Shown here: positions 3,001 through 48,000 of the stretch, piece after piece | Numbering within the stretch: position 1 is the first letter of the stretch | How the letters are laid out: each line of letters opens with the position of its first letter | Assembly: GCA_037074765.1 (NCBI GenBank) | Contig: JBAMDO010000050.1 | Location: forward strand, 241,443-305,442 | Direction of reading: 5' to 3' | From: Mansonella perstans | Taxonomy: Eukaryota > Nematoda > Chromadorea > Rhabditida > Onchocercidae | DNA length: 64,000 nt | Translations under genes and position numbers: made by a program | Notes under the pieces: model-generated | The model's input: the letters and a program-made list of their open reading frames with translations, nothing else | What the model was told of the DNA's origin: nothing | Databases searched by the model: none

Positions 3001-6000
3001 AACAGATAATTCTGATTACATATTTGGCATTCTATAATACAGTTGCCATAAAATGATGTTGGAAAAGGAATGGTTGAAGTTTGTGTAAGATTCGTATTGG
3101 AGAACTGGGAACATTCAAGAAGTAGACCGGCATGATTTTTGCCATTTCTTTTAGTTTTGCACTGATTTGCAATATTATCTCTTTACTTTAATCATCATGG
3201 TTTATTAAATGTTTCATTTGCTTTTATTGTTTTTCTTTAATTGGAAAAATCGTTTATAGGTTAGAAATGGCTGTCCCATGTAATGCGTGTTCAAACAATC
3301 AACGGTTTCTTCACAAAGCATGTGATATATCAGCGACATTCTGTTTTTTTGGTGAAGACAAGATAAATAGAAATAGTCCATCAACTGTTTTGGACGAAAC
3401 CTTATCTTGTGTGAGTTTTTTCGGATTCATTCGAACATTTTTTTTGTGGCGGAAGAGGAAGATTTAGCACTATTTGTGAACCCTTTATGCTCTCTTTTTT
3501 TTGCTCCGAACACATCCCTCAATTATTTTACCGCTGGTTCGTTGCTCAGATGTCAATAGCTTGATGATTATTTCATGTTGAAGATGGCGACAGTGATGGC
3601 AAAAAAACCTGTTGTCGAATCCACTGAACTAAAAACTGCCATCACATCGGAAACCACATCGAATATTCAAAATGATAGTGGAAAAAGTGATTTACAGTGC
3701 CGTCAATTTACTGAACAGGTGTAGTAATTATGTAAGACTTTTTTTTGCCATGACGCAGTAGTTCGTTGTTCATTTCAGTGACCGGTATAATAGTTTATTA
3801 TTATATCACTAATTTTTGCTTACTTTTGGTCCTGACAGAAAACTTGATTACACTTGAGCCACTTAGAAATATTATATCACTATATTAAGTTATTAAGTTT
3901 CCTATGTTTCTGATGTTTCTGACTGAAATTGTAATTGCCGTAATAATCAATGACTGTTAAGCAGTCAGGAGAAGGACATATATTCATTGTGCTGAAGGAG
4001 CTTTATTTAGGATTATATTTCCAAAAAGCATGAAATTGTTATTTTTAGTTATCTTCCGGACGAAATAAACTGTTACCTAGTGAGCTTTACAAACATTATT
4101 TTTATGAGAGAAAAAAGTCGTTTTTAGTACAGTGTTTGTTTTTATAGAATCGGAAAATCTTTGCTCAAATGCTTTTATGTTATGGTTTAAAAGACCGTTG
4201 GCAACGTTTTGATCGTATCTCCGGTTGCGAGCGTGTAATGAAACGAATATATGTGAAACGCTGGATGTTACAAGAACATTTCCGCAATGCAAAGCAGTCG
4301 GTAACAGCCGATGCTGAACTAAATTCACATTTGGTCTGTGTTCAGGAATTCCTTTGATTCATCCGTTATATTAATGTATGTTGGTGCTTAGTGCTGAATG
4401 CAGTAAGTATATGATTTACAGGTCGCTTCGTTGGACGATTATTCAATTACGGCAGCCAAAAAACAGGCAGAGAAATTTCTTGGAAATTATCCGATTTGTT
4501 CTCCTTCAACCTCCGATAGTGTTTTTGAGAAGAATGTTAATAGCGAACCTGTGTACGTTTACAAATATCTGGAAGAAGCTTTAGAGGTTTATACGCGTAG
4601 AGCGAGTAGTGATTTAGTAGGAAGTGGCCATATATCACCCCAGGGAGGCAAGCAAATAGGTGTTAGGTTATCTCGTGGCCTACAACCTTTCGGCTACGCG
4701 AGTCGACGTGATCCAGAAACCGAAATGCTACAGGCGGTTGCAGAAGTTCTCGCGGAAATCATTGAAATCGTCATCGAAAATGATAAAGGTTTTGAACTTT
4801 GTTCCATAATTGATGCTTGAGCTATTTCTGAAGATTCATTTTTTAATGATTCCGAGTTGCTGGCATTAATGGGAATCATTCGCTATATTACAGAAGGACG
4901 AGAAGAAAGAAATGAACAACAGCATTTAGGAAGAAAAAGGAAAAAGAAAGATCATCATTTGATTGAAATCAAAATTGCAGACCGATTTGGGATCATTGAG
5001 CTACCTCACACTGTACCTCAAGTATAGCATTTTATTCTTTTCCGAAAATCTGGTTGTATGTGTGAGTGTGAACACTTGATCAAATTGTGTTGCAGTTATC
5101 ACTGAACACCTACACTCATTGCATTCTTTAGTGATGGTTGATTTGTTGCGTGTTGCACACTCTGCATGGAAAAGGACTTAATTAGTTTTTTCGTGACCTA
5201 CAGCATATTGAAATGTTCAGTGAATCATGATTGTACTTCCTGAACTTTTGTTTAGCACTAGTCGATACTGCTTTCGATTTTCTAATTTTTTTTAAGCACT
5301 GAAATCATATTTAAAGCACGAAGATGGATCTAGCGTGTTTGTGATTATTTTATTTTGGTGTTTTATTCTTCAGATTTTCGGTGTAATTTGTCTTGCCACC
5401 CTCTTTTCTTTCCACCCATATTTCGTTTTTTATAGAAATCACTTTTGCAGAATATATCAGTGATGTGTGTTTCAGGCTTCGAACAGTGCTGTTGCTTTGT
5501 ATGATAACATAAGCCAGTGCACTCTTAGTAGGAAAAGGAAATCAAAAGCTCCAGATGCGGATGATGCTTTCTTCATGAATATAGAAGAAGAACTGAGTCG
5601 TAAAAAAAAGCGAATTGCAGGAAATAAAAACCTTTCGCGGACGCTGCATTCCTTAAGGTTCATAAAGTATACAAATAATAAAATGCGTATGTCTAGCAGA
5701 TTTTTTTTCATTTCTGGTCGTTTGGTCTTACATACAACTGATACAGAAATGGTTAAATTTTCACTTATCACTTCTTCGTTTCAAAAGTTTACGGGCACAA
5801 TGGCGAAACGTAGTTATTATTTGAACGGCAATCAAAAGTTAACTATAAAGAATTATTTGCTAGGTTTTATTCTGACACTTCAGTGTTTAAAACGGGATTT
5901 TCAGTCAGGTGCGGGCAGTCCATCAGAGATTATCAGATATGCGGAAGGCTGAGCGTGACAATTTAAATGAAGCAACAAAACAGATGCTTGATCTTGTCAG

Positions 6001-7614
6001 AAACAGTGATCCTACTTCTTATGTCGAACTGATAAATGGTCACAAAGAAGTTAGTTTAATCTATTTACTTGGATCTGAAACTGTGTAGGCTTTCAGATAA
6101 AAACAGGATTACTGGATCAAATTGCGACAGCTTTCTTTGTAGTTGCCATCATATCTAACATGAAGTGGTTCAAGAACTTTTTATTGTCATTAACAGTGCA
6201 GTAATTTTAGTGAATTTTCTGCGACTTGCGGTATGTTTGCAGTTTTAGATTACATTCTTTTATGACTTATCTAATATACCAGTATTTGCCAAGTTTGTTG
6301 TAACACATCTTCTTAAGGAATGTCAACCTTACGACAATGATACTGTTCGAGAAGAAAAATGGCAAAGTCGGCTTCTGTCATTTACTAAAGCGATCCCACC
6401 TAAAATTATTCCAACTTCAAGAAACTATGATGCAAATTTAGCAATGAAGCTTCACCCACCAATGAATTATATACTTAAATTGTTTGGGGTCTGCTTTTTT
6501 GTCAAATGTTAGAAGATGGAATGTTAGTGCAGTAAAATATATTTTCGATGAACACAGTGACTTCGAGATTAAACAAAACGTTGAGTGCAGTCATTTGAAG
6601 AGGGCATCTTCTCATAGTTTTTTTTTTTTTTTTTTTTTTTTTTGCACTGATCTCAGTGTTGTGCAACCATAATGGAGCTGTCAGCTATAGACTCTGCTGA
6701 CACTAGTTTGTTGATATAGCTAATTTTAATTTACCGTCCCTGACCCAATTGTCGTTTCGTAAATTCTATAATGATTTTAAGGAAAAGTGTATTCGTCCGC
6801 CCAAACGTTTTCGGTCGGGAATGAAGCGAACGCGCAAAAGTCAATCACGTAGGGGTCGCGGTCGCCAACGCGGAAATGTTGCACATTCAAAAAAAAAGTC
6901 GCCGACTCCTGAGCCGAAGCTGGAAGATCTTGAGCCACATTTTACGGCTGCAGAAATGAGTGCGATGTTCAAGAAAGAATTTGGAATGGATATGAAAACA
7001 TTTAGGCTAGCTTGAATTTATTTCATCACTTTTTCCTTTGTTAGTTTGTTTTGAGCAGTGGATTAATTTTATTCATTTTGTAACTTTTATGATTTTTAGG
7101 TTTTTTACCCAAATAATTTAGGTATGAACGCTGTTCACAACAAGAATCGCATTCGAAATTGGTTGGTCAAGAGCAGCTATCGCATAGTGGAGAACGAGGA
7201 TTGGGAGCAACAGAAATATCAGTTGCAAATCAGTCTTGTGCAGATTGCAATGTGTTGAAGGATAATATAACAGAGGATGTAGAAAATGGAAGTGCGATGA
7301 TCAGTGAAGTCATGACAGTAATTCCCGGCGACCCAGAAGTTGTTATTGAAAACTTGAACAGCGAAACGCAGCATGAGAATGGGAGCGATGAAAATGTTGA
7401 TTCATCGGTGTCAGTGCCTTGCGTAGATTCTCTCCAAAATGATGAAAGTAGCTTATTTGAACATGTGCAAACGCGTGGGCGATACATACGTGAGCATTTC
7501 GCTACGCTGTTGCATGCACTGCGAATCAGTGAGCTGTTGACAGTGAAAGCGATTAGAATGTTCAGGGACTACACAGCAGATCTGTTTGACCAAGAAAGCA
7601 AAGGTGCGGATTGA
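89..7614 (+). CDS. 3' part of a multi-exon gene for an unrecognised basic, probably nuclear protein
   Basis: The gene enters from the left edge. Exons that chain with matching splice phase are 89-272, 485-557, 841-1078 and 1180-1271. Further likely coding blocks are about 1550-1731, 1802-1893, 2075-2256, 2690-2915, 3260-3408, 3585-3717, 4148-4335, 4423-5024, 5476-5660, 5905-6050, 6320-6477, 6720-7007 and 7122-7614 (stop TGA). The protein is hydrophilic and low in complexity, with basic clusters (SPRKRLRKQ near 1675; KRTRKSQSRRGRGRQRG near 6830) that look like nuclear or nucleic-acid-binding segments. The last exon is acidic/Ser-rich and ends in a helical, Leu-rich segment (YIREHFATLLHALRISELL). 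No catalytic domain is visible. The motifs ARPTILRK and later SPRKRLRKQ faintly recall SAP130 of the Sin3 complex, but its C-terminal domain was not found, so I do not name it. The joins between 1.36 and 1.73 kb are unresolved because frame and splice phase disagree, and the block could hold two genes. Confidence 0.55.
4789..4833 (+). other. Either a 45-nt intron or an in-frame TGA inside an exon
   Basis: The reading frame of the exon starting at 4423 meets TGA at 4818-4820, yet the same frame stays open and protein-like afterwards (NDSELLALMGIIRY, then RKRKKKDHH). A GT at 4789-4790 and an AG at 4832-4833 would remove exactly 45 nt, take out the TGA and keep frame (...ENDK-DSFFNDSE...). This is far shorter than most introns in the window. 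Otherwise the TGA is a real stop, a sequence error or a readthrough site. Confidence 0.5.
6618..6643 (+). repeat. Homopolymer T tract inside an intron of the left-hand gene
   Basis: About 26 consecutive T residues lie between the likely exons ending near 6477 and starting at 6720. Similar shorter T runs occur at about 8553-8562 and 8608-8625. They are too long for a normal polypyrimidine tract alone and are prone to length error. Confidence 0.85.
7008..7121 (+). other. Candidate GC-AG intron before the last exon
   Basis: The exon starting at 6720 reads open to ...KTFR, then would give Leu-Ala-stop. There is no GT at that point, but a GC follows ACATTTAG at 7007. The acceptor ATTTAG at 7121 then resumes in frame (AG plus G, Arg, then YERCSQQESHSK). 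If it is not spliced, the protein stops at 7012-7014 and the 7122-7614 reading frame belongs to something else. Confidence 0.4.
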
Positions 7615-18700: not shown

Positions 18701-20786
18701 AATTACTCTGTACTCGAACTTCGATGGTATCATGCGCATCGACGCCGACGTTATTTGATGCTGTACACTCATAGACGCCGCTATCATTCACCGTTACACG
18801 AGTTATCCTCAGCTGGCCATCTTTTGATATAGCTCTTGCTGGCATTTTTCGACCATCCTATAAATGAATCATATATTTGCTAAACCAGTCAAACAATCTG
18901 TAAAAACAAGGACACTGTTTAGAGATGAACTCTAAAAGCAACGATTGATCTATGGCCCATTCCATTAATACTTCAATGTTTAATCACTTATTTCGAATCA
19001 ATGCAAAGATCATCGGAGAAAAAAATCATAACTTTGAAAGTTTGAAAGTAAAACCATAGACAACCTTTCGTGTCCATACAACTTTTGGTGGTGGATTACC
19101 AGATACTGAACATTTAAGGACCATATTCTCACCAACATTCACAAGCAATGGATTTGCATCTGGCGATATGGAAACCATAGGACGTACTAAAATCCTCAGT
19201 TCAAAAAATTTGCAGAATAAGCATAAAGACTATGGCTGAATCACTTTCAATTAATTAGGGTCATTTCATTATTTCACTGGAACAGCCTAGATACTTCGTA
19301 AAATCTGCAAATTTCAAATTGAAATTTGGAACAGAGGAATTTATTGATAACCTTCTGTATACTTCCATTCCATGGTCTGCTCATAAATACATTCTACTTA
19401 CACTATTAAATATTCCTCCTATTTTAGACGGGGCTTCTGATGCTCTTATGCAATAATAAGAAATCGAAAGAAGAGAGAATTGTACCGTTCACTTCTAATA
19501 TGTGCGTTATTGACATCTCAGGTGATGTTATTTCACAAATATATTTTGCGCCATCGTATGGCTCCACTCGATCGATAACTAATGTGAAATTCTGTAAATT
19601 AATTAACAGATATACCAAAAAACACATTTGAGTATGCTTGATTTGTGTCAGTGAAAGATTTATAAAAAATATTTTTTAAAGATTGGTTTATGTTTGGAAG
19701 CAATGATTGCTATTTTTGTCTCTAAAAATTTTTAAAAAATTGCACATATTTTTTCTAATTATCTTCACTACTACTTCTGCCATTCTAAGGGAATTAGAAC
19801 TATATGAGACAATGATTCAGAGATCAGAACTAAAAAAAGTGTTAGCACAGTAATCCTGAATTGAAGCTGGAAAATAATAAGGTATACAGGAATGATACAT
19901 AACACAATACATATATATAATGCAATACAAAGAAAGAATAATTGAAAAATAATTGAAGAAGTATAATTTGATTACTTAGCAAGTGTTTTGCATCAAAAAA
20001 TTACTTTTTTTCAACAGAAATGGAAAATTCCTATGAGGATTTCTAACGGTTAATTATTTGCATCGACTTATAGAGAATAATATCAGCATCCAATCATAAC
20101 TGACCAAAATTTCAACACAAATCATAATTAATAAACCACTTTTAAGTCGAATTGTTACTGTGACATAAGAAGGCATGAGAAAATGAGGATGAATTCAAAT
20201 TTAGAAAATGTAAACTAATTAATAAAGCTGAAATTTAAAATAGAAAAGATAAAAAACTGCACACAAAGATAGTGAACGAGTAGTCTTCAGCCATAATTCA
20301 CAATTATTTTTTTATTTTCAAGAAATAGAAACTAACGCTATCTTTTCTACGCAACTGGAATCGTTGATCCTCATGAAAAACTTCCTCATCAGTGAACAAT
20401 ACCATTTCACCGCGTTTCCATATCACCACTGTCTCTTCCGCTACAGATTATTACAATTTTAGATTTATCCCATTATGAAAGTCCTAGTGTTAAAATTTTT
20501 GAGTGAATTTGACGCTTAGCATAAGACAAAAGCTCAGTTAATGTAGTGCCATTTTTCTATGAGAATTTGTTTTGCTATGTTTGTTTCATGTAAGCTCACT
20601 ATTTGATTTCCAGGATAAACATATGCATACCAATATTACGTATATTGCAGGGTAATTCGACACTGTCACCTTCATCAACAACGAAATGGTGTCCAGTCGT
20701 TGTTATGGTAGCTTGTGTACAATCGTAAAATACGAGCAACGTCAAAAAGGTAAGACTAACAATGTTGTAAGCCATTACATTCGTCC
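12758..20786 (-). CDS. wrk-1: GPI-type Ig/FN3 cell-adhesion protein, Wrapper/Rega-1/Klingon (WRK-1) class
   Basis: Coding exons, 5' to 3' on the minus strand, are 20640-20775 (ATG at 20773-20775), 20337-20440, 19486-19591, 19065-19186, 18707-18857, microexon 17399-17425, 15777-15907, 14096-14261, 13310-13459, 12970-13137 and 12758-12855 (stop). All joins keep phase. The order of domains is: signal peptide (MAYNIVSLTFLTLLVFY), Ig1 (VELPC; VIWKRG; DGAKYIC), Ig2 (VLKCSVSG; VVWTRK; DSGVYECTASN), a linker, Ig3 (INLTCKY; VDWIYNG; FGDYTCRVANN), and FN3 (PGPPHLNANGTRLSWS; WLRPGLEYELQVKARN). The tail is short and hydrophobic with no cytoplasmic part (SYLLVGLFAFSSANF), as in GPI signals. Drosophila Wrapper and Klingon share this Ig3-FN3-GPI plan; C. 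elegans WRK-1 belongs to that class and acts in ventral-midline axon guidance. The symbol rests on architecture alone. A 3' splice site (TTTTTTTAG) lies 11 nt before the ATG, so the transcript is trans-spliced or has an upstream exon. Confidence 0.85.
17399..17425 (-). other. 27-nt cassette microexon between Ig2 and Ig3
   Basis: It is flanked by strong sites: TTTATTTCAG on the acceptor side and GTGAGT on the donor side. It adds nine residues (about TDQYGAHEP) in phase 1. Splicing straight from exon 18707-18857 to 15777-15907 also stays in frame, so both inclusion and skipping give a full protein. It sits alone in about 2.8 kb of intron. Confidence 0.7.
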
Positions 20787-35500: not shown

Positions 35501-36843
35501 ATAATCTGCTATCTCTTGTGAAAATAAATAGATACCGAGACCAATGTTCTCGGTAGCCTTTGCGCTGTGAATAAGAATATTACCTAACCTGAAAGAAGAA
35601 TTGTTAAGTATTTTCAAGTCAATGCTTTTAAAACATACAAATAGCTTTGAAATTCACTTTGCAGCATTAATAAAAGTCAAAAAAGACGTTCCAAAGATAA
35701 GAAAAGATAAGTGGAAATTTACATCCAAAAAAATTCCTTAAATGTAATATTACATTTCTATTGATTTCCATTCTAAAAATTTTATTCCTGAAAATTATAA
35801 CTTCCTGAAATATTTTTTATTATTAACGTGATTTTGTTGTAATACAGTCGAGCTTACTCATTTCTGCGGGACTTCACATACCTCAGAAAAAACTCCTTAT
35901 AATTTAACTTCGTTATAGTTTGCGGTGTTTTACAAACAGTAAACAATATGACTGTAATATAATTACACCACATAAATTTAAAATTCATCGTTCAAGGTGG
36001 CAAAGCATAAAGTTCCACTAAACTCCAATCTTTTTTTATCGATTCGATCTTCATGGTGCAATGAAGGAATTAAGTATGAACGATCAGGAATGTATGAAAC
36101 CGAAAGCTAAATTGGCTTGGAAGTACGAAATCCTTTGGATTACGGTAGGACCGACGTATGTTAAACACAGCTATAAATTTACGAACTTTTATTTATAATT
36201 AAGAATATCTTCGGTTTCGATTTATTATCATGCATCATGAAATAGCCGAGTAGCAGATTTTTATGAAAAAATGAAATGATGAAAAAATAAGGTGGAATAA
36301 ATGAAATTTCATGGCTTCGAAGATATTTTTTTAAAAAATTCCTCATAATTTATCCGCATTATTGACCAATTTGAGACTGTAACAGATATGTCAAATTGTG
36401 TGTAAGATTGGAAATTTCAAAGTTTTTAGGCAGACAATGTTGAATAATTATATAAGATGAATTATGATCAAAAATTGTAAGGATAATGTGCTCTGAAACA
36501 GCACACAATTTCCCACTGTTAATCTGTTGCAAATAGAAGAGGAGATATGAATTTTATAAAAAGTCATCTGTGTTGCATTTGGCTTTTATGCCAGCCCGTA
36601 TCACATCAAAAAATATGAAGCAACACATCGATAGTACAATACAATTTACCAATAAAAGAAAAACAGGATTGATCATCATCATCTGTCTTTTCTCTTAGCT
36701 TTTCTCTCTCTCTCTATAGTTCTGTAAACTATATTGCACAAATTTTCCAGACACTTTAACTCTAGATTAGTGAATTTAAAATGAAATCGGTTGCACATCT
36801 TTTTGAATTTGTGATATTCTACACTTAAATCTGTTTTTAAGAT
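23600..36843. other. 13-kb stretch without recognisable genes
   Basis: Read on both strands. It contains many short AT-rich open frames but no domain, no exon chain and no RNA gene that I could support. Minor items: a poly-T run near 23921-23938, a TA run near 28920-28938, a duplicated 'cacaccacattaaatga' near 29947-29990, and a tandem 10-mer at 31029. Confidence 0.55.
31029..31061. repeat. Three tandem copies of a 10-bp unit
   Basis: The unit catttgccga occurs three times in a row, followed by a partial fourth. It is small, with no visible function. Confidence 0.85.
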
Positions 36844-37545
36844 TGAATAAAGGAACACGATAATGAAAATACAAAACTGGTTCTTTTACTTCAATGCTTT
36901 CCAAAGTTATCGATAGATTTGCATTATGTGCTGGATCCTGATTTGGGTAATGCCTAGTTGTAGGCTTGGCTTTAATTTCCCCATATTTTTCTCCTGCTAG
37001 TTCCACTACTTCATCAAATTCCACATCATCAACAATCAGCAGTATTGCATTGTTTGGATGGTAATAGTTGTCATGAAACCTTATCATGTCATCTTGATTG
37101 TAAGTTCTAATGTCGCTTTCCCAGCCGATAACAGATCTGCCGTAGCCAGTACAGTAAAATGCACTACTCATTTCTTCCCATAGCAAATTGTTAGGATTAT
37201 TATCAAATCTCATTTTCTTTTCTTCTAATACAATATTTTTTTCCCTATCTATTTTGTTTTGAGTAACGTTAAAATTGTCCATTCTATCTGCTTCAACTTC
37301 CATTGCTGGTGGTAAGTCGCCCTTGAGGACTAATTCGTAGTAACAGGTATATTCTCTAGTGGTAAATGCGTTAAATTGCGCTCCAATACCACTCATGTCT
37401 TTAAATTTTCCTGTGGTTTCAAACATTAAATGCTCAAAGTAGTGAGCCAATCCTCCTTTGTCGATTGGATCATCCATTCCCCCCAACTTTATATATTACT
37501 GCATTGTGTTTTGAATTATGAAACAATACGACCATTTGAAGGCAC
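36844..37545 (-). pseudogene. Truncated M16 (insulinase-family) peptidase, probable nuclear Wolbachia insertion
   Basis: An intron-free minus-strand frame of about 215 codons encodes the N-terminal half of a bacterial-type M16 zinc peptidase. The zinc motif HxxEH is intact (GLAHYFEHLMFETTGKF), followed by QFNAFTTREYTCYYELVL, ADRMDNF, a VLEEKKMRFDNNP segment carrying candidate metal-binding Glu, and YHPNNAILLIV. Similarity begins earlier, in the +1 frame (NSKHNAVIYKVGG), and shifts frame at a run of six G near 37480, so the start is broken. It ends abruptly after YRVPLFN near 36845; the C-terminal half of the protease is missing. All other genes here have exons of 50-260 bp, so a 640-bp intronless bacterial-like block is foreign in style. 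It is inferred to be a fragment transferred from the Wolbachia endosymbiont rather than a nematode gene. No promoter or partner gene is evident. Confidence 0.8.
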
Positions 37546-39018: not shown

Positions 39019-42000
39019 TTATCTAAGTGAAACATCAGATGGCGTCGACGAGTAATCGAGTAAACGTTGTTGCTGAGCAAATTTAATGGATGAGATAAAA
39101 TGACTACTTGGTAACAGCATGTGTTTCGTGCTTTCCATTGATGATGAAGCTATCGAGGAATTAATTCTACTGTTCGTTGACACTTGTAGATGGTGGGTCT
39201 CTTCATCACTGTATTCCATTCTCGGATCAATACGAACCCGATGAGGGGTTGTAACCTGAAAACATAAGAAAAATCAAGATTGTTTGTCAAGCTGATCATT
39301 GCCACAGTAAATTTTTAAACACAGCACGTGTTAATAATAAAATCCACTTAAAAAAAAGACACTAAGAGTAGATGAAGAAATACGGATTGGGCCACCTACT
39401 GTTTACTTGTGAGTAAAACTAACTGAAAAAATCAAACATCTACACATTAGTACAGAGAAAGATGATTACATCCTTTGAATAGGAAGATGGAGGACTGTGA
39501 ATTCTGGTACTAGCATTAAGTGCACGATATCGCTGTTTTCGCCTGTTTCTGTTGAAACCTGAATCACCACCACTATGCTGCAAATGAATCCGCATTCCAG
39601 CTGGTTTCACGACACCATATATCGACAAACTATAAATTATTGACGCCATTCATATAATTTTTCTTAAGCCTTACTTCTTAATTTATTTATGATTCTTCAC
39701 ATTCGATTTTTTTTTATGTAACTTTCGCTGGTTAAGCGACGCTCGATCTAACCTGATTACAGCAAAAAGCTCAAAATTCTGAGTTTATGTGAACTATAAA
39801 CACCTTGCGGCAGAAGGCGGTGGTGCAAAAAATTTCCGAGAATTCGTTTTGGTCGCAGCAGCACTGACTGTAGTAAACACTGAACTCCTTTTTGAAGAAT
39901 TACCATTGAGTGCTTGGTAATATGATATTATGTCGGTTGAAAACCGTGAATTTGGTGGAGGTAATGCGTTATATAACGAAGATGATGTTCCAAACGAGTA
40001 GGTACGAAGTTGGAACTACAAAAGGCGAAATGAAGCTTGTATTTTATTACAAACAGCAATCAGTGAGCAAATACGGTTGTAGTAAAAGAAATTTATTTAA
40101 GAAATTCCTTAACAACATACTTCAATCCGGGCTCCATCTGGATCTGCTGGCAGTAGTACTCGCGCCTCAGCATTCATTGGCAGTGAATGTGTTGCTATTA
40201 CATGAGCTGAGTTTTGTCCTAATGATCGTTGCTTTGAAAAATAGCAGCAGCACAAACTCACAATAATTAGTGTCAAAAAAAACACTGCCAACAGCATGAT
40301 CAATGCGGATGAAGGTGATATGGTTGTAGCAGTCGTCATTGTTGTACCAAATCCAGCACACAGCTAGAAATTCATAAGCGCGATTCGAGATATTTCAGTG
40401 AACAAAAAACCTCAGCCTTTTAAATGTCTTCAATAAGCCTTCCGAATTAATAGAAGTTTTAACCTGCTTCTCTTCATCCTGACCAGCATAACAGTTGCTA
40501 ATACCATCACAGATCAACTCTCGGCTGATGCATTCAACTGGATGCAATGCAGCATTTGGTCCAAAAGTACAGTCAAAATAAAGAAGTGGATTAGCACATC
40601 GGCAATGAGTCTCGTCTGATCCATCAGTACAATCTTCTGCTCCTAAATGAAAAAAAAAACATATGGGAAATACACTACCTTACAATTGCTAGCACTTTCG
40701 AAAAATCAGTTTACAAACCCTAGATTGGGAAAATGAATGAATAACCGTTACAAATAAGCGCTCGGGCAATTGATGTTTTCTTATTGTCACATGGCCACTT
40801 ATCAAATGTAACATTGCCGCACCACTGCAAAGATTCATCACTGCCATCGGTGCAATCATGATGCCCATCACATTTTGCCATTGCATGTATGCATTCTTGT
40901 CCATCATCACATTTAAACTGCCAGTGAAGACATGATGCATGTTTAAAACAGTAGGTTCCACTGAAATTATGACTCCAGTTTCGAAATATGAACAAGATAT
41001 TCCTCAGTTAAGTAACCCTAACCTTGGAGCTTGTAAGCCAAATCCAAGAGGACAGAGACATTGATGACGTTTCCTGGAATCTCGAGGGATTTGGCACAAG
41101 TGCGAACAGTGTGATACCGCACAAGTATGGTTTAAATTTACATTAAAGTCCCTTTCGATACTACCAACTACTGTCAATGCAAGAACACGCTTGACTGAGA
41201 AAGGCGACGATGTGCTCCATTTCAATTCATCCAAGGAAACGGTAGAAATATCATCCACCAATTCCAATAACAGATCATCATATCTGCAATTAAAAGAACA
41301 GGAAAACTGGCCTCCACATCCAGTAAACTAAACCACAGATTAGCTCTGACTGGGATTACTAAACCACGGACTACAAAAAAAAACCAAGTAACTAAACCAC
41401 AAATTAACTCTGACTGGGATTCATTTTTCACAATAATTATCAGTTTCTTCTCATTGATTGGAATCATATCAATATCCGAAGGTCGCGCTCTAATGTGATG
41501 ACGTACATCCGAAAACACAAGGGCATCTCGCGACCACAATCCTAAAAACAAATTGAATTTACCTGCTATCATTTTTTGATGTTTGCTTTGCTTTCAATTA
41601 CTTGCATCTCAGTGATCAGTAAACAATACTGGGTAACATAATGTGAAATCTTAAGTCTACTAAACAAAGCGGTCGGTATTTCTCACACTAAATGAGTTAT
41701 TTCTTAATTCCAAAAATAACTTTTTTTTTCACGATATACGTAAAGAACATAATGAACACGCAAAACTAACCGTTTGCTGTCGTATAGTATAAACGATCGT
41801 TGATTTGATAAGCTTGAAGTTTCACGATGTGTTTTAGATTTAGTGTTTCCCACTGCACACACTGGCGACCATTCAACGAACACCGAATAATCACAGGTAT
41901 AGAGCCACCATCATCCACGTAAAAAAGGAGGCTGAAATAACTAATCATCAGTATACGATTCCTCAAAATTTAGCGATTAAACCAAAAAAAAACAAACAAA

Positions 42001-45000
42001 TTAAATAAAAGTTCCTGTAAAGAAACGTACTTTAACCTAGGGAAAAGAGCAATTTGTCGAGGATGAGGAGGTCGACCAGTTACTGGAGAACGCTCTTTTC
42101 CTGACACAACAACACCGATATATTCCAAATGATCATTATTCTGAAGAAAAATGAAATAATTTTGCTATAATAATTAATTGGAGAACATGTAAATACGAAT
42201 TACCTTTATACGCCAGACATGAATGGATGATGCATGGCTCAGCCCATGTTCTGCGCATGAAACAAATATCTGTCGACCGATTTCATCAACTGCTAAGTGG
42301 AAAAGTATTGCACAGTTCGAACGTTTCGATAATGTAATTGTCTGGGTCTAAAAATAATTATCGATACTGCAGAAATAAACTTTGGGAATGAAAAGCGTGA
42401 CAAAGTGTATACCATGGAATGTGATAAATCTGATGATCGTTTAATAACTCTATCATCATTAGAATCAATCCAGTAAATGGAACGATTTGCAGAAAATAAA
42501 TCAGCACCCACTGAAACTGGTGTACCAACATTTGTCACTGACAGAATTGAATAAGGATCCTGAAATTATATTAAATTACAGATTTTGGAAATTTGAAAAA
42601 TTCTGGATATGAAGTCGTACATTTTTCCAGAATATGTCACCGGTAACCGCTTGTCTCAGGTTGAAGCGTATGAAACGACCTCGGATGGCAACCAACAGAA
42701 AGTGCTTTGGCGCTAAAATCAAGCAGTATTTCAGAAAAACAACAAATTAACGTTCCCCATTCAGAATATAAGAATATGAATATTTTTCTCACTGTCCGCA
42801 AAAAAATTTTAATAAGAACAACTTACGCAGGCACTTTTCTCCAACATGATCAAACGTGAAATGATCCTCACAAAAACACTTCGCGCTTGCATTGTATGAG
42901 CTTCCACTAACTGCTACGCATATATCACTACACCCACCATTGTTTTGGACACAAGTATTCCAACCTGAACAGGATAAGTGATCACAAACTGTGAAAATTT
43001 TAATTAAAAGAATACATAAACTTCTCTATTCAAGTGCCCTACTTCATGTTTATATTCAACAACTCTAAAAACAATTTTGATCCCAATTCAAACACTTCCT
43101 GTTTTGATCTCTTTAACAAATCCATCTTATCCCTACTTCAGTAGTAGTTATTGGGAGAGTTCATAAGCACTGAGTGCGGCCAAATTGTTTAATTGACTCG
43201 TAATTAAAGAACAAACAAATCGCCCACCTTCACTCATCTGTGCATGTGCAACAGCAAGATTTGTAACATGACTGATACCATCATGCAAAACTGTTAATGT
43301 GTGACCGCTATACAGATCAATAGTATTGCTATTCATATTAGCAATGTATATTTGTCGATTATAAACAGCCAATGCAGTAGGTAACAACTGTCCACTATAT
43401 AGCAAACGAACACGACCTCTTCCTGCAAATGATTTGATTTCTCACCTTAAAAAATTCATTTTCTAAGAGCGTGACATGATATTATTTTAATCCACATTAG
43501 AAATATGACAAATGCAACAAATTTAAACATGCTTTAAAAAACGATTACAAACAGCCAGTGCTGTGAGCAACTTATAAACTTATGCAGAACTTTTTTTTTT
43601 CAAAGCAGACTCTATCTAAGTGTTCTTAAACAAAACTTTTTGAAGAAAAAAAATTTTGACACTTCAAAATGCACATCACAGCTTATTGAAGCACGAAAAT
43701 GAAGCTTAACATTTTAAATTGAGTCTATATCATTAGACAATCGTCCATCCACTACTGAATTAAAAATCCAATAATCTACCTTCTTATCTGGGAAAACAAA
43801 AAACAAACCGCTGAAATCAGAAATGGAAACTCCACCTCCTCGTTCATCCAGCTCTGACCACACCAACAATTCAGAATCAAAATCAATTGCGAGCGCATTA
43901 ACTGTGTCAAGCTGTTGAACAATAACTTTGCCTCCTGATTGCGCACCGTGGAGAGGTATTTTCTAATTATGCAATACAATGTAAAATGCAAGACAAGAAA
44001 TCTAGAGATGGTCTTAATCAAACTATTATCAAAAGAATGCTAAACGAACAAACAAGACGAACATGAAACTATGGAATAAAGCAAATTAAACAAAAAGGCA
44101 ACCACTTCAACCCAAAAAATAAATTCCTAGATTAAAAATAAATGCACAGAATTTATTCATCAAACAAAACGAAAGCATTATGAAACAAGAATATACTTAC
44201 ATTTATAGTTATTTTCTGTCGGTCGTAATAATTAACAAAAACCAGAAATCGCTGAAGTGGATGGATGACTAAATATCGAGGATCGATATTTTCCCATGCA
44301 ATTGTACGATGACGACGACCGTCGCCACGAACCATTTCAATTCGACGTTGTTCTATATTACACCTTAAAATAATTAAGATTACAGTGAAACATGGATGTC
44401 AGCATATTTCGCATTCTAAAAAAATTCATTGTCTAACCAATAAATATTTGAGGTGATCCAGTCCACCGCAATATAATTCACCGCGTTTCCTTCATACACA
44501 GTTTCCAAACCAGAGCCATTAAAAAAAGCGCTACGAAGTAGTGAACGAATCGAGCGACCACGTCCTTCTGATGACCAAAAAATTCTCTGGGAAATCTAAA
44601 CAAGGTATTAATGTAATTTAAAGACGAAGATGACCATGATCAACCGCACTGCATCAGATAAAGTATCATGTTGAGACAAAGCAGTTTTACTCATAACAGG
44701 AAAAAACTGAGTCATTCCGATGAACATATATCAAAAAAAAACCTGGTTGATATTCACGCTTATTGGAGCTGATATCATATCAGCAATATTGATACGGTGA
44801 TTATTAGCCGGAGCTGCTTCCAAAGAAATTCTCATGATGTCGTTAGCTGTGTTTACTAAAGGGTTTTGCGTGTAAATGAGAAATGCAGCAGGCATAATGC
44901 ATGTTTTATTGTCTACTTGCAACTCATAACCAACCGGACAGACACATCCTCTTTCGCCATTTGGTCTGCAAAAAATATTATCAGTTGTTTCGAATATATC

Positions 45001-48000
45001 TTTAATTTGTTCATCGCAGAAAAAGAAGTAAAGTAGTCAACCAGCTTAACTTTGAAAGTTTTGGACAACGTTCTTTTGACAAAGTTCACTAATGTTACAT
45101 TTAATAAACGAAAACAAGTCTTTCGTAGAAAGACTATAATAAACCTCCAGTGCTTCAAAATTATACTCGAATTTAAAAACTCACAGCTTAACACAAATGT
45201 GCGAGCATCCACCATTACTTATCTGACACGGAGAAACACCCTCTGGGATATGATTCAGGCTAACCGCTCGAATACCCATTTGACCGAAGATAACTGCATC
45301 AGATACCACAGATAACTGTGCATCAGAGAAAGATTCATTATGCTGAGGTACACGAAACACTGTTATCTTACGACCGTACAGTGAATTGCAGTACAAAGAG
45401 TTACCTGCAAGTGACAATCTCGTTCAATTCAATATATGCCTTTTATTAGAAACAAAGTTGGAACTGATCGACATGTTCGTTTCTAACAGAAATCCAAAGT
45501 TGCGGGAGGTAAAATAGTATGATGCAATACTGTGAAAACCACTATACTGTGAAATTTTTTTTCATCTGCAATGAGGCTCCAACTTCACTCCATGACTTCT
45601 AATCAAATCTTGATTAAAACAGCTGCCAAAATTTCGTAAACGGAAGATTTAAAAATTTCTGAATACAGACAAATGAAAAAATGAACAACCTAATATAGTA
45701 AGCGAATAGGGATGGTTGACACTTTCTGAAAAAACCTGAACATCCAACTTTCCGTCAAGAGTCACCGATTTAATAAATGATCGACTTCCTTCTGCCCAAT
45801 ATAAGCGTTTATGCATTGCATCAACCACAATTCCATTTGGCCAGGCATCTTTCTCCAGCGAAACCTAAATAACAATACTGCTCTCTATGTAAATGGTGTA
45901 AGATGTGAATATATAATAGGAATACTAACCAAGGAACGAAATTAAAAAAAACCAAAACATACAAGCACTCGTCTGTGTGAACCATCTAGCCATGCTTTCT
46001 CAATACGACTCGTGCTTTCGTGCCAATCTGAGAAAAACATGTAGCCACCATCCGGATCCAAGGCTAAACCGCGTGGCTGTTTCAGTCCGTGCGATATTAC
46101 TATCTGTCGTTCTTTGCCAGACAAGCTTTGCATCTAAAGGAGTTAAAAACAAGCAAAATGAATAAATCAACAAAAACTTCATAAAGTGAAAATGATAAAG
46201 ATCAGAAGAGTCGAAATGCGGTTAAATATTTCAAGTTAATGGAGATTGCTGTAGCAGGTACAAATTACTGATGATCTAGATGAACTGGACAGATTTAGTC
46301 AACAAATGACGTCTGCATAAGCTTTTCAAAGTAATAAACAAGCAATTACTAGAAAACGAGCGACATTAAGAACCTTGATTTGTGCAACATTACTATCTAA
46401 CCAATACAGATTACGATTCAACCAGTCAACAGCCAGAGCATCGGAAATTAACTTATCTGAATCCTCAACAAAAACCTGGAAATAAGAAACACAAACGTCA
46501 ATAGTAGCCGAAAACTACAATAAATGTTATCCAAAGACTAGTTGTTCAGGTCAATTTTACAAGACAAAACAGTTCCATTAGACTTCGTGAAAAAATGACC
46601 TCCATTCCTGTGCCATCTGGATTACACCTACGAATAACACCCATGCCTCCATCAATAATGAACAATTTCTTGTCGATTGGATCAAAATCGACATGCACAA
46701 CTTTAGTCTCCCGTATCTCAGAAGCTGCGTTTGGAAGTGGTAAAGGTGTACGATATGTCGTATCTAGCGAAATAAAAATCAAGCCTGACGTCGTCGCCAC
46801 ATACAGTAAACGTTCTATTCCTGAAATTCCAAGAACAGTAGGAATAAAAACTAGCATACCGAATATTTTCTCATATAACTTCACAAATTTTCAAGGAAAC
46901 ATCACATAGCACACAAAAACCTGAAACAGAATGAACGGAAACACATAACTTCATCAATTCTATAAAAAAGAATAGGATTTTTAAGTTGAAAAAATTGCGA
47001 TCCAAATCATGATGCAGTATTTTTATCTACCAAGATTTTGCAAAATTATTCCGGAATTTATCGTCCATAAATTAGCATTACTATCATCAAATACTTCAAT
47101 GAGTGTCAGAATAAACAATACTGAAAATAACCAGCCACCATTAGGTGAACACGTTAAGCGATCTTGAAGAAGACGCACTCCCACAGGACATAGGCATGAC
47201 CGCCAAGGTGCACCAGGAATCAGCACGCAGATGTGTGAACAGCCCCCATTTTTTGACCCACAAGGATTCAACGACTGCCCTGAAATAGAGGAAGCAAAAT
47301 TTCTGATAACATTAATCTCTAGAGTTAGATAATTTGAAGTTTTTTAGAGTTCGTGTTGATATTTTTACTCTAAAATCACGAAGAACTTCAGAAATGATTT
47401 AGAAAGGAATGTACAGAAACCTACTCAGCGGCTGAACCTGTTTATCGGATACCACCAGGGTTTCAACGCCACTTGAATTAATCACCTGACGAATTGTACG
47501 ATCACAGTCCGCTTTATCACATACAGTTATGCCGGAATTCTGATTCGTCACCGATGTCCATATCAGATAATCCTAATTTTTTTTTGTTAAAGCAGAGATT
47601 TAAAAAAAATACAAAACTTTCCAGCTCCAAATTACTGCAGAAAAAGATATTCAATTGCAGAAATTTATATGGCTTATGACTACGTGATTCACAATCAAAG
47701 ATTTTTAGACAAGACTAAAACGATTTTCGAACCAACTACATACATCGAAAACATCAAGGTAAAAGGCGTTGACTTTACTAGCAACTGGTCGGCACGATTC
47801 ACGATCATATAATGAACAACTCCAAATTTGTGAATCATCCAGTGATGTCAGAGTACGAACATAGTACAACATCCGACCTGCCTTAAAAATAATAGAAATT
47901 TTTTCAAAAAAAAGGAAAAATCTGAGACTCATAGGCAACCTTTATCCCTAAATGAAGGCATTCTGACCAACAATTTGACAATTTCATTCAAGTGATCGAT

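Follow-up and report, generated by a model that had tools for sequence, protein, structure and literature searches.

What this locus asks is how a stretch of coding sequence for a bacterial-type M16 metallopeptidase comes to lie in an assembly of the filarial nematode Mansonella perstans, and whether its open frame means anything for the worm. The locus lies in the window analysed here, the last 64,000 nucleotides of a contig of 305,442 bp, which belongs to an assembly of 75.7 Mb and 539 contigs. A sequence-only reading had described an intronless block of about 215 codons at 36844–37545, broken by a frameshift at its 5′ end and cut off within the protein at its 3′ end, and had proposed that it was a nuclear insertion from Wolbachia with a frame that was either young or kept by chance or selection. 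The available text of a recent survey (Vancaester et al. 2025, PMC12693587) reports such insertions in the genomes of filariae that are infected today and in those of five of six uninfected species.

A truncated and disrupted Wolbachia M16 gene

Homology to Wolbachia, as defined by blastn, covers 662 bases on the minus strand (36843–37504), close to the range first proposed except for its last 41 bp (37505–37545), which are not Wolbachia-like. The longest open frame of the window (36776–37495, minus strand) runs for 239 codons from stop to stop; in 50 sequences resampled from the window by a Markov model, the longest frame had a mean of 137 codons and a maximum of 209. The open body of the fragment itself (36845–37495, minus strand) accounts for 217 of these codons, in good agreement with the earlier estimate; host DNA beyond the end of the Wolbachia match at 36843 extends the frame by about 21 codons and a stop (36776–36842, minus strand). 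The translated body matches the Pfam families Peptidase_M16 (PF00675, 1.7e-19) and Peptidase_M16_C (PF05193, 2.5e-9), the latter alignment spanning only positions 3–95 of 181, and the HxxEH zinc motif is intact, as had been noticed, reading HYFEH.

Two lesions set the fragment apart from the 30 Wolbachia copies with which it was aligned, these being the loci returned among 38 matching genomes. The G run near the 5′ end (37479–37484, minus strand) differs in length near 37484 from all 30 copies and shifts the frame, bearing out the frameshift already reported. The second lesion had been overlooked: 12 bases are missing at about 37397 (37396–37398, minus strand), a deletion that keeps the frame and is found in none of the 30 copies. 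In the donor-type gene (L009), a 458 amino acid frame at 5788–7164 is full length and open, and the fragment aligns to 5987–6659 of this, 49% of the gene, and is therefore without the first 199 and last 505 bases; the 3′ end does indeed fall mid-protein. Complete N- and C-terminal domains in a single open frame are not found in the fragment, given its extent, the frameshift and the partial PF05193 match. Thus, whilst its identity to the donor-type gene is high (92% in DNA to L009 and 91% in protein to P0002, described below), the worm copy is a broken internal half.

When the fragment was compared by blastn with 11 loci from Wolbachia and a near relative, the best match was to L009 (from a record titled Rickettsiales MAG), with 92.3% identity over 674 columns, other identities being 89.2% for wOc (from Osmia), 83.5% for wOo and 82.5% for the Litomosoides brasiliensis strain. 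A genus-wide search found matches in 38 of 41 Wolbachia genomes, with identities from 92% down to 68%, and the Wolbachia origin first proposed is therefore upheld. At the protein level, P0002 from wMoz, the Wolbachia of Mansonella ozzardi, is 91% identical over 69% of the query.

The fragment nests inside Wolbachia diversity in both DNA and protein trees. In the DNA tree (31 rows, with no Mansonella Wolbachia DNA among them) it is sister to L089, which is the same gene as L009, with support of 98/96. In the protein tree (43 rows, taking 14 of 22 protein hits and 28 of 30 Wolbachia loci) it is sister to P0002 (97/81), within a group (98/90) that also includes wOc, P0011 from the Wolbachia of Madathamugadia hiepei, three other strains and the fragment P0012. 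The two loci omitted from this tree (L092 and L102) have stops in the common frame of the cut-out pieces; the L092 piece begins two bases later, and L102 shows an additional gap and is perhaps a broken copy itself. Individual residues are shared as well: a D in ADRMD is common to the fragment and P0002 (and P0012), with G in L089, L090, L091, L093 and P0011, and a T in PTTRH is common to the fragment and P0002, with I in L089, L090, L091 and L093. The Osmia, Mansonella and Madathamugadia strains belong to supergroup F, according to the available text of PMC12693587, and the grouping with wMoz points to a supergroup F donor. Judged from these sequences, the donor is a supergroup F Wolbachia close to that of Mansonella, rather than one resembling the strains previously put forward for comparison (wOo, wOv and wBm).

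Location in the worm genome and further Wolbachia pieces

The fragment lies between stretches of host DNA. In a whole-genome search with 2.8 kb around the block, the flanks on both sides occur once only (simple repeats and very common words being omitted from this search), and the other two matches of the query are to pieces that overlap the ends of the block. There are no N bases in the window. The nearest recognised host domain, an LDL-receptor class A domain at 40470–40935 (minus strand), lies about 3.0 kb from the fragment and belongs to a gene that is LDL-receptor-related by its domains (LDLa, LDLb and EGF-like; 40470–47262, minus strand), the class B and EGF-like ones extending as far as 47262. 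These features place the insertion in the nucleus, as had been suggested. On the other side, the nearest recognised domains are immunoglobulin domains at 18732–19181, and Pfam scans of both strands found no host domain in 22.4–36.8 kb; 37.5–42.3 kb was also scanned, and 42.0–51.7 kb and 12.7–22.4 kb were covered on the minus strand. To judge by these domains the fragment is probably intergenic, though it may lie in an intron or untranslated region.

The fragment has company elsewhere in the assembly. Searching the worm genome with 11.4 kb of Wolbachia sequence yields 14 matches, none of them whole-length: seven are to a dispersed Wolbachia repeat and the other seven lie on six contigs. With a 19.9-kb query that is taken from another F-like genome and includes the same M16 gene, there are 22 matches spread over 17 contigs; some of these are weak or fall within the dispersed repeat. 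The scatter of pieces is known in this way from one Wolbachia neighbourhood, the two queries overlapping in gene content. The M16 gene is represented by three more pieces, on contigs C188 (L121; L009 5792–6040), C24 (L122; 6478–6744) and C247 (L120; 6821–7055). Along the gene, those on C188 and C24 overlap the piece in the window, so they are not parts of one broken single-copy insertion.

Several other features of the worm genome were seen in the course of these searches. At C258:51551–51903 (L123, L125) there is a composite Wolbachia insertion in which two stretches that L009 has some 3.2 kb from each other meet in opposite orientations and overlap by 8 bp. The dispersed repeat (L009:1820–2350) is about 500 bp long with no long open frame, and has at least 13 to 18 matches in each of five Wolbachia genomes and seven in the worm genome; nothing in Rfam matched it at close to a gathering score. 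There are also nuclear copies of mitochondrial genes, recognised as nd5 by search in one case (L133, on C119) and by eye, as nd5- and nd4-like stretches, in two others (L134 on C3 and L135 on C25). Under the nematode mitochondrial code L133 stays open over 232 codons, and its translation is 93% identical to ND5 from Mansonella sp. 'DEUX', 84% to an Onchocerca ochengi-named cluster and 83% to Mansonella ozzardi. This makes Mansonella the most likely host genus, with a lean towards the DEUX side, though the nuclear copy may be older than the host species. One host exon used as a query matched six proteins, the best (unnamed) at 66% and the only named one, from Brugia timori, at 63%.

Relaxed constraint on the open frame

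The changes carried by the fragment are not those of a gene under the constraint seen in living Wolbachia. Sites specific to the fragment, relative to four agreeing F-like strains, fall at codon positions 1, 2 and 3 in the ratio 5/10/9, and 23 of these 24 are transitions; private changes summed over the four strains fall 15/5/39. The difference (positions 1 and 2 against position 3) is modest (Fisher p = 0.027), and the test compares four-strain agreement with three-strain agreement and includes any changes made in Mansonella Wolbachia before the transfer. Counting only bases that are absent from every Wolbachia row gives 4/10/2 (Fisher p = 0.00015), but such a count disfavours third positions and is not used as evidence here. 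By the NG86 method, the fragment has a dN/dS of 0.29 with the nearest strain and of 0.12–0.15 with five others, compared with 0.05–0.09 for the 15 pairs among those six Wolbachia rows. The fragment is also changed at eight of the 106 columns that are invariant in 28 Wolbachia rows (again without L092 and L102), where the median for a Wolbachia row set against the others is one; four Wolbachia rows likewise alter several otherwise invariant columns (10, 6, 6 and 5).

How surprising is it, then, that the body is still open? In a neutral simulation of substitutions only, with no indels, 71% of runs stayed free of stops after 16 changes, 60% after 24, 53% after 30 and 44% after 40 (5000 runs each). 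With codon positions at 5/10/9 and about 60% of simulations stop-free, neither selection nor youth is called for, and of the explanations first offered for the frame, chance suffices. Selection on the open frame was considered and rejected on the codon-position counts, the NG86 values and the simulation. As to age, the fragment differs from L089 at 22 nonsynonymous sites against 8.5 for L090, about 13 more, which suggests a neutral divergence of roughly 2.5–3% since transfer. On that estimate the fragment is not fresh, and part of its divergence could predate the transfer, having arisen inside the bacterium.

Origin of the fragment and what it means

Taken as a whole, the evidence leaves us very nearly certain that the fragment is a nuclear Wolbachia transfer (NUWT), a piece of a supergroup F M16 gene in the worm germline that is decaying neutrally as a pseudogene. 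The reading most remote from this, that the block belongs to a nematode mitochondrial-type M16 gene (MPP-beta or core protein) and is not bacterial DNA at all, can draw on the MPP-beta chains that match the translation (best 7.8e-22), but zinc protease and zinc peptidase chains score better (3.2e-34 and 1.7e-31) and Wolbachia DNA is up to 92% identical over 674 columns. The worm genome's other M16 matches, moreover, are on other contigs: a search gave 12 matches, eight loci were examined with the window's among them, and the other seven had no match at 1e-5 to the 11 Wolbachia and near-relative loci. The DNA identity to Wolbachia refutes a host gene of this kind, a best match to which would have told against the original proposal, and we give it practically no weight. 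A misjoin in the assembly, bringing a piece of a live Wolbachia genome into a worm contig, deserves more thought, since live Wolbachia are reported in M. perstans and Mansonella sp. DEUX in the available text of PMC10145164 and such DNA is to be expected in the sample. Against it, the lesions occur in none of the aligned Wolbachia copies, both ends are cut inside the gene, the flanks are single-copy host DNA with no N, three more pieces of the gene lie on other contigs, and no match covers the full 11.4-kb segment, the matches being short and scattered. An artefact is thus very improbable.

It might also be supposed that the worm has retained or domesticated the fragment as a gene or exon derived from the Wolbachia protease. 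The 239-codon frame, the longest in the window, and the intact zinc motif would fit this, and transcribed Wolbachia-derived sequences are reported from other filaria, namely Brugia and Onchocerca flexuosa, in the available text of PMC3849323, PMC3458923 and PMC3549793. Yet the codon-position pattern, the raised dN/dS and the eight altered invariant columns speak of relaxed constraint, the start and the C-terminal part of M16 are absent, and the frame stays free of stops in about 60% of simulations; retention would appear, if anything, less probable even than a misjoin. Comparable to the misjoin in its improbability is that the fragment is transcribed, for example by read-through from the LDL-receptor-related gene, and has some effect through a short, truncated peptide of M16 type or through a regulatory RNA. 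The motif and the 217 open codons can be counted against a decaying NUWT, though an open frame is a common outcome of neutral change.

Amongst the worm's own M16 genes, three near-identical copies of an insulin-degrading-enzyme exon (L001, L002 and L003, on C81, C235 and C531) lie near contig ends, with 98.6–99.7% DNA identity over 2.3–2.6 kb. Their zinc motif reads CFCEH, Cys replacing the first His, and they are possibly inactive paralogues; a fourth, less similar copy (L004, on C337) keeps HFCEH.

On this reading, part of the chromosome of a supergroup F Wolbachia belonging to the Mansonella lineage, with the middle of the M16 gene on it, entered the DNA of the worm germline, most likely when a double-strand break was repaired by end joining. 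Neutral pseudogene decay after insertion would account for the frameshift, the 12-bp deletion and the mostly transitional changes; no working protease would be made, the open body persisting by chance.

In the available text of PMC12693587, NUWTs are reported in all 22 filarial genomes but S. labiatopapillosa, and the only carriers without supergroup F copies are E. elaphi and Li. sigmodontis. The fragment resembles the NUWTs described there in being a short Wolbachia piece on a nuclear contig, of supergroup F, decayed and one of many, and no difference in kind was found in comparison with that text. The main text contains no occurrence of M16, insulinase or peptidase; its supplements may or may not list the locus. 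The fragment is an ordinary relic, one more case of a well-described phenomenon. It does carry a caution, that a PCR or protein search for the Wolbachia M16 gene can match worm DNA. On its own it matters little, as a further trace of a supergroup F Wolbachia in the line of Mansonella, but together with its sister pieces it could help to establish whether the F infection was already there before the Mansonella species separated.
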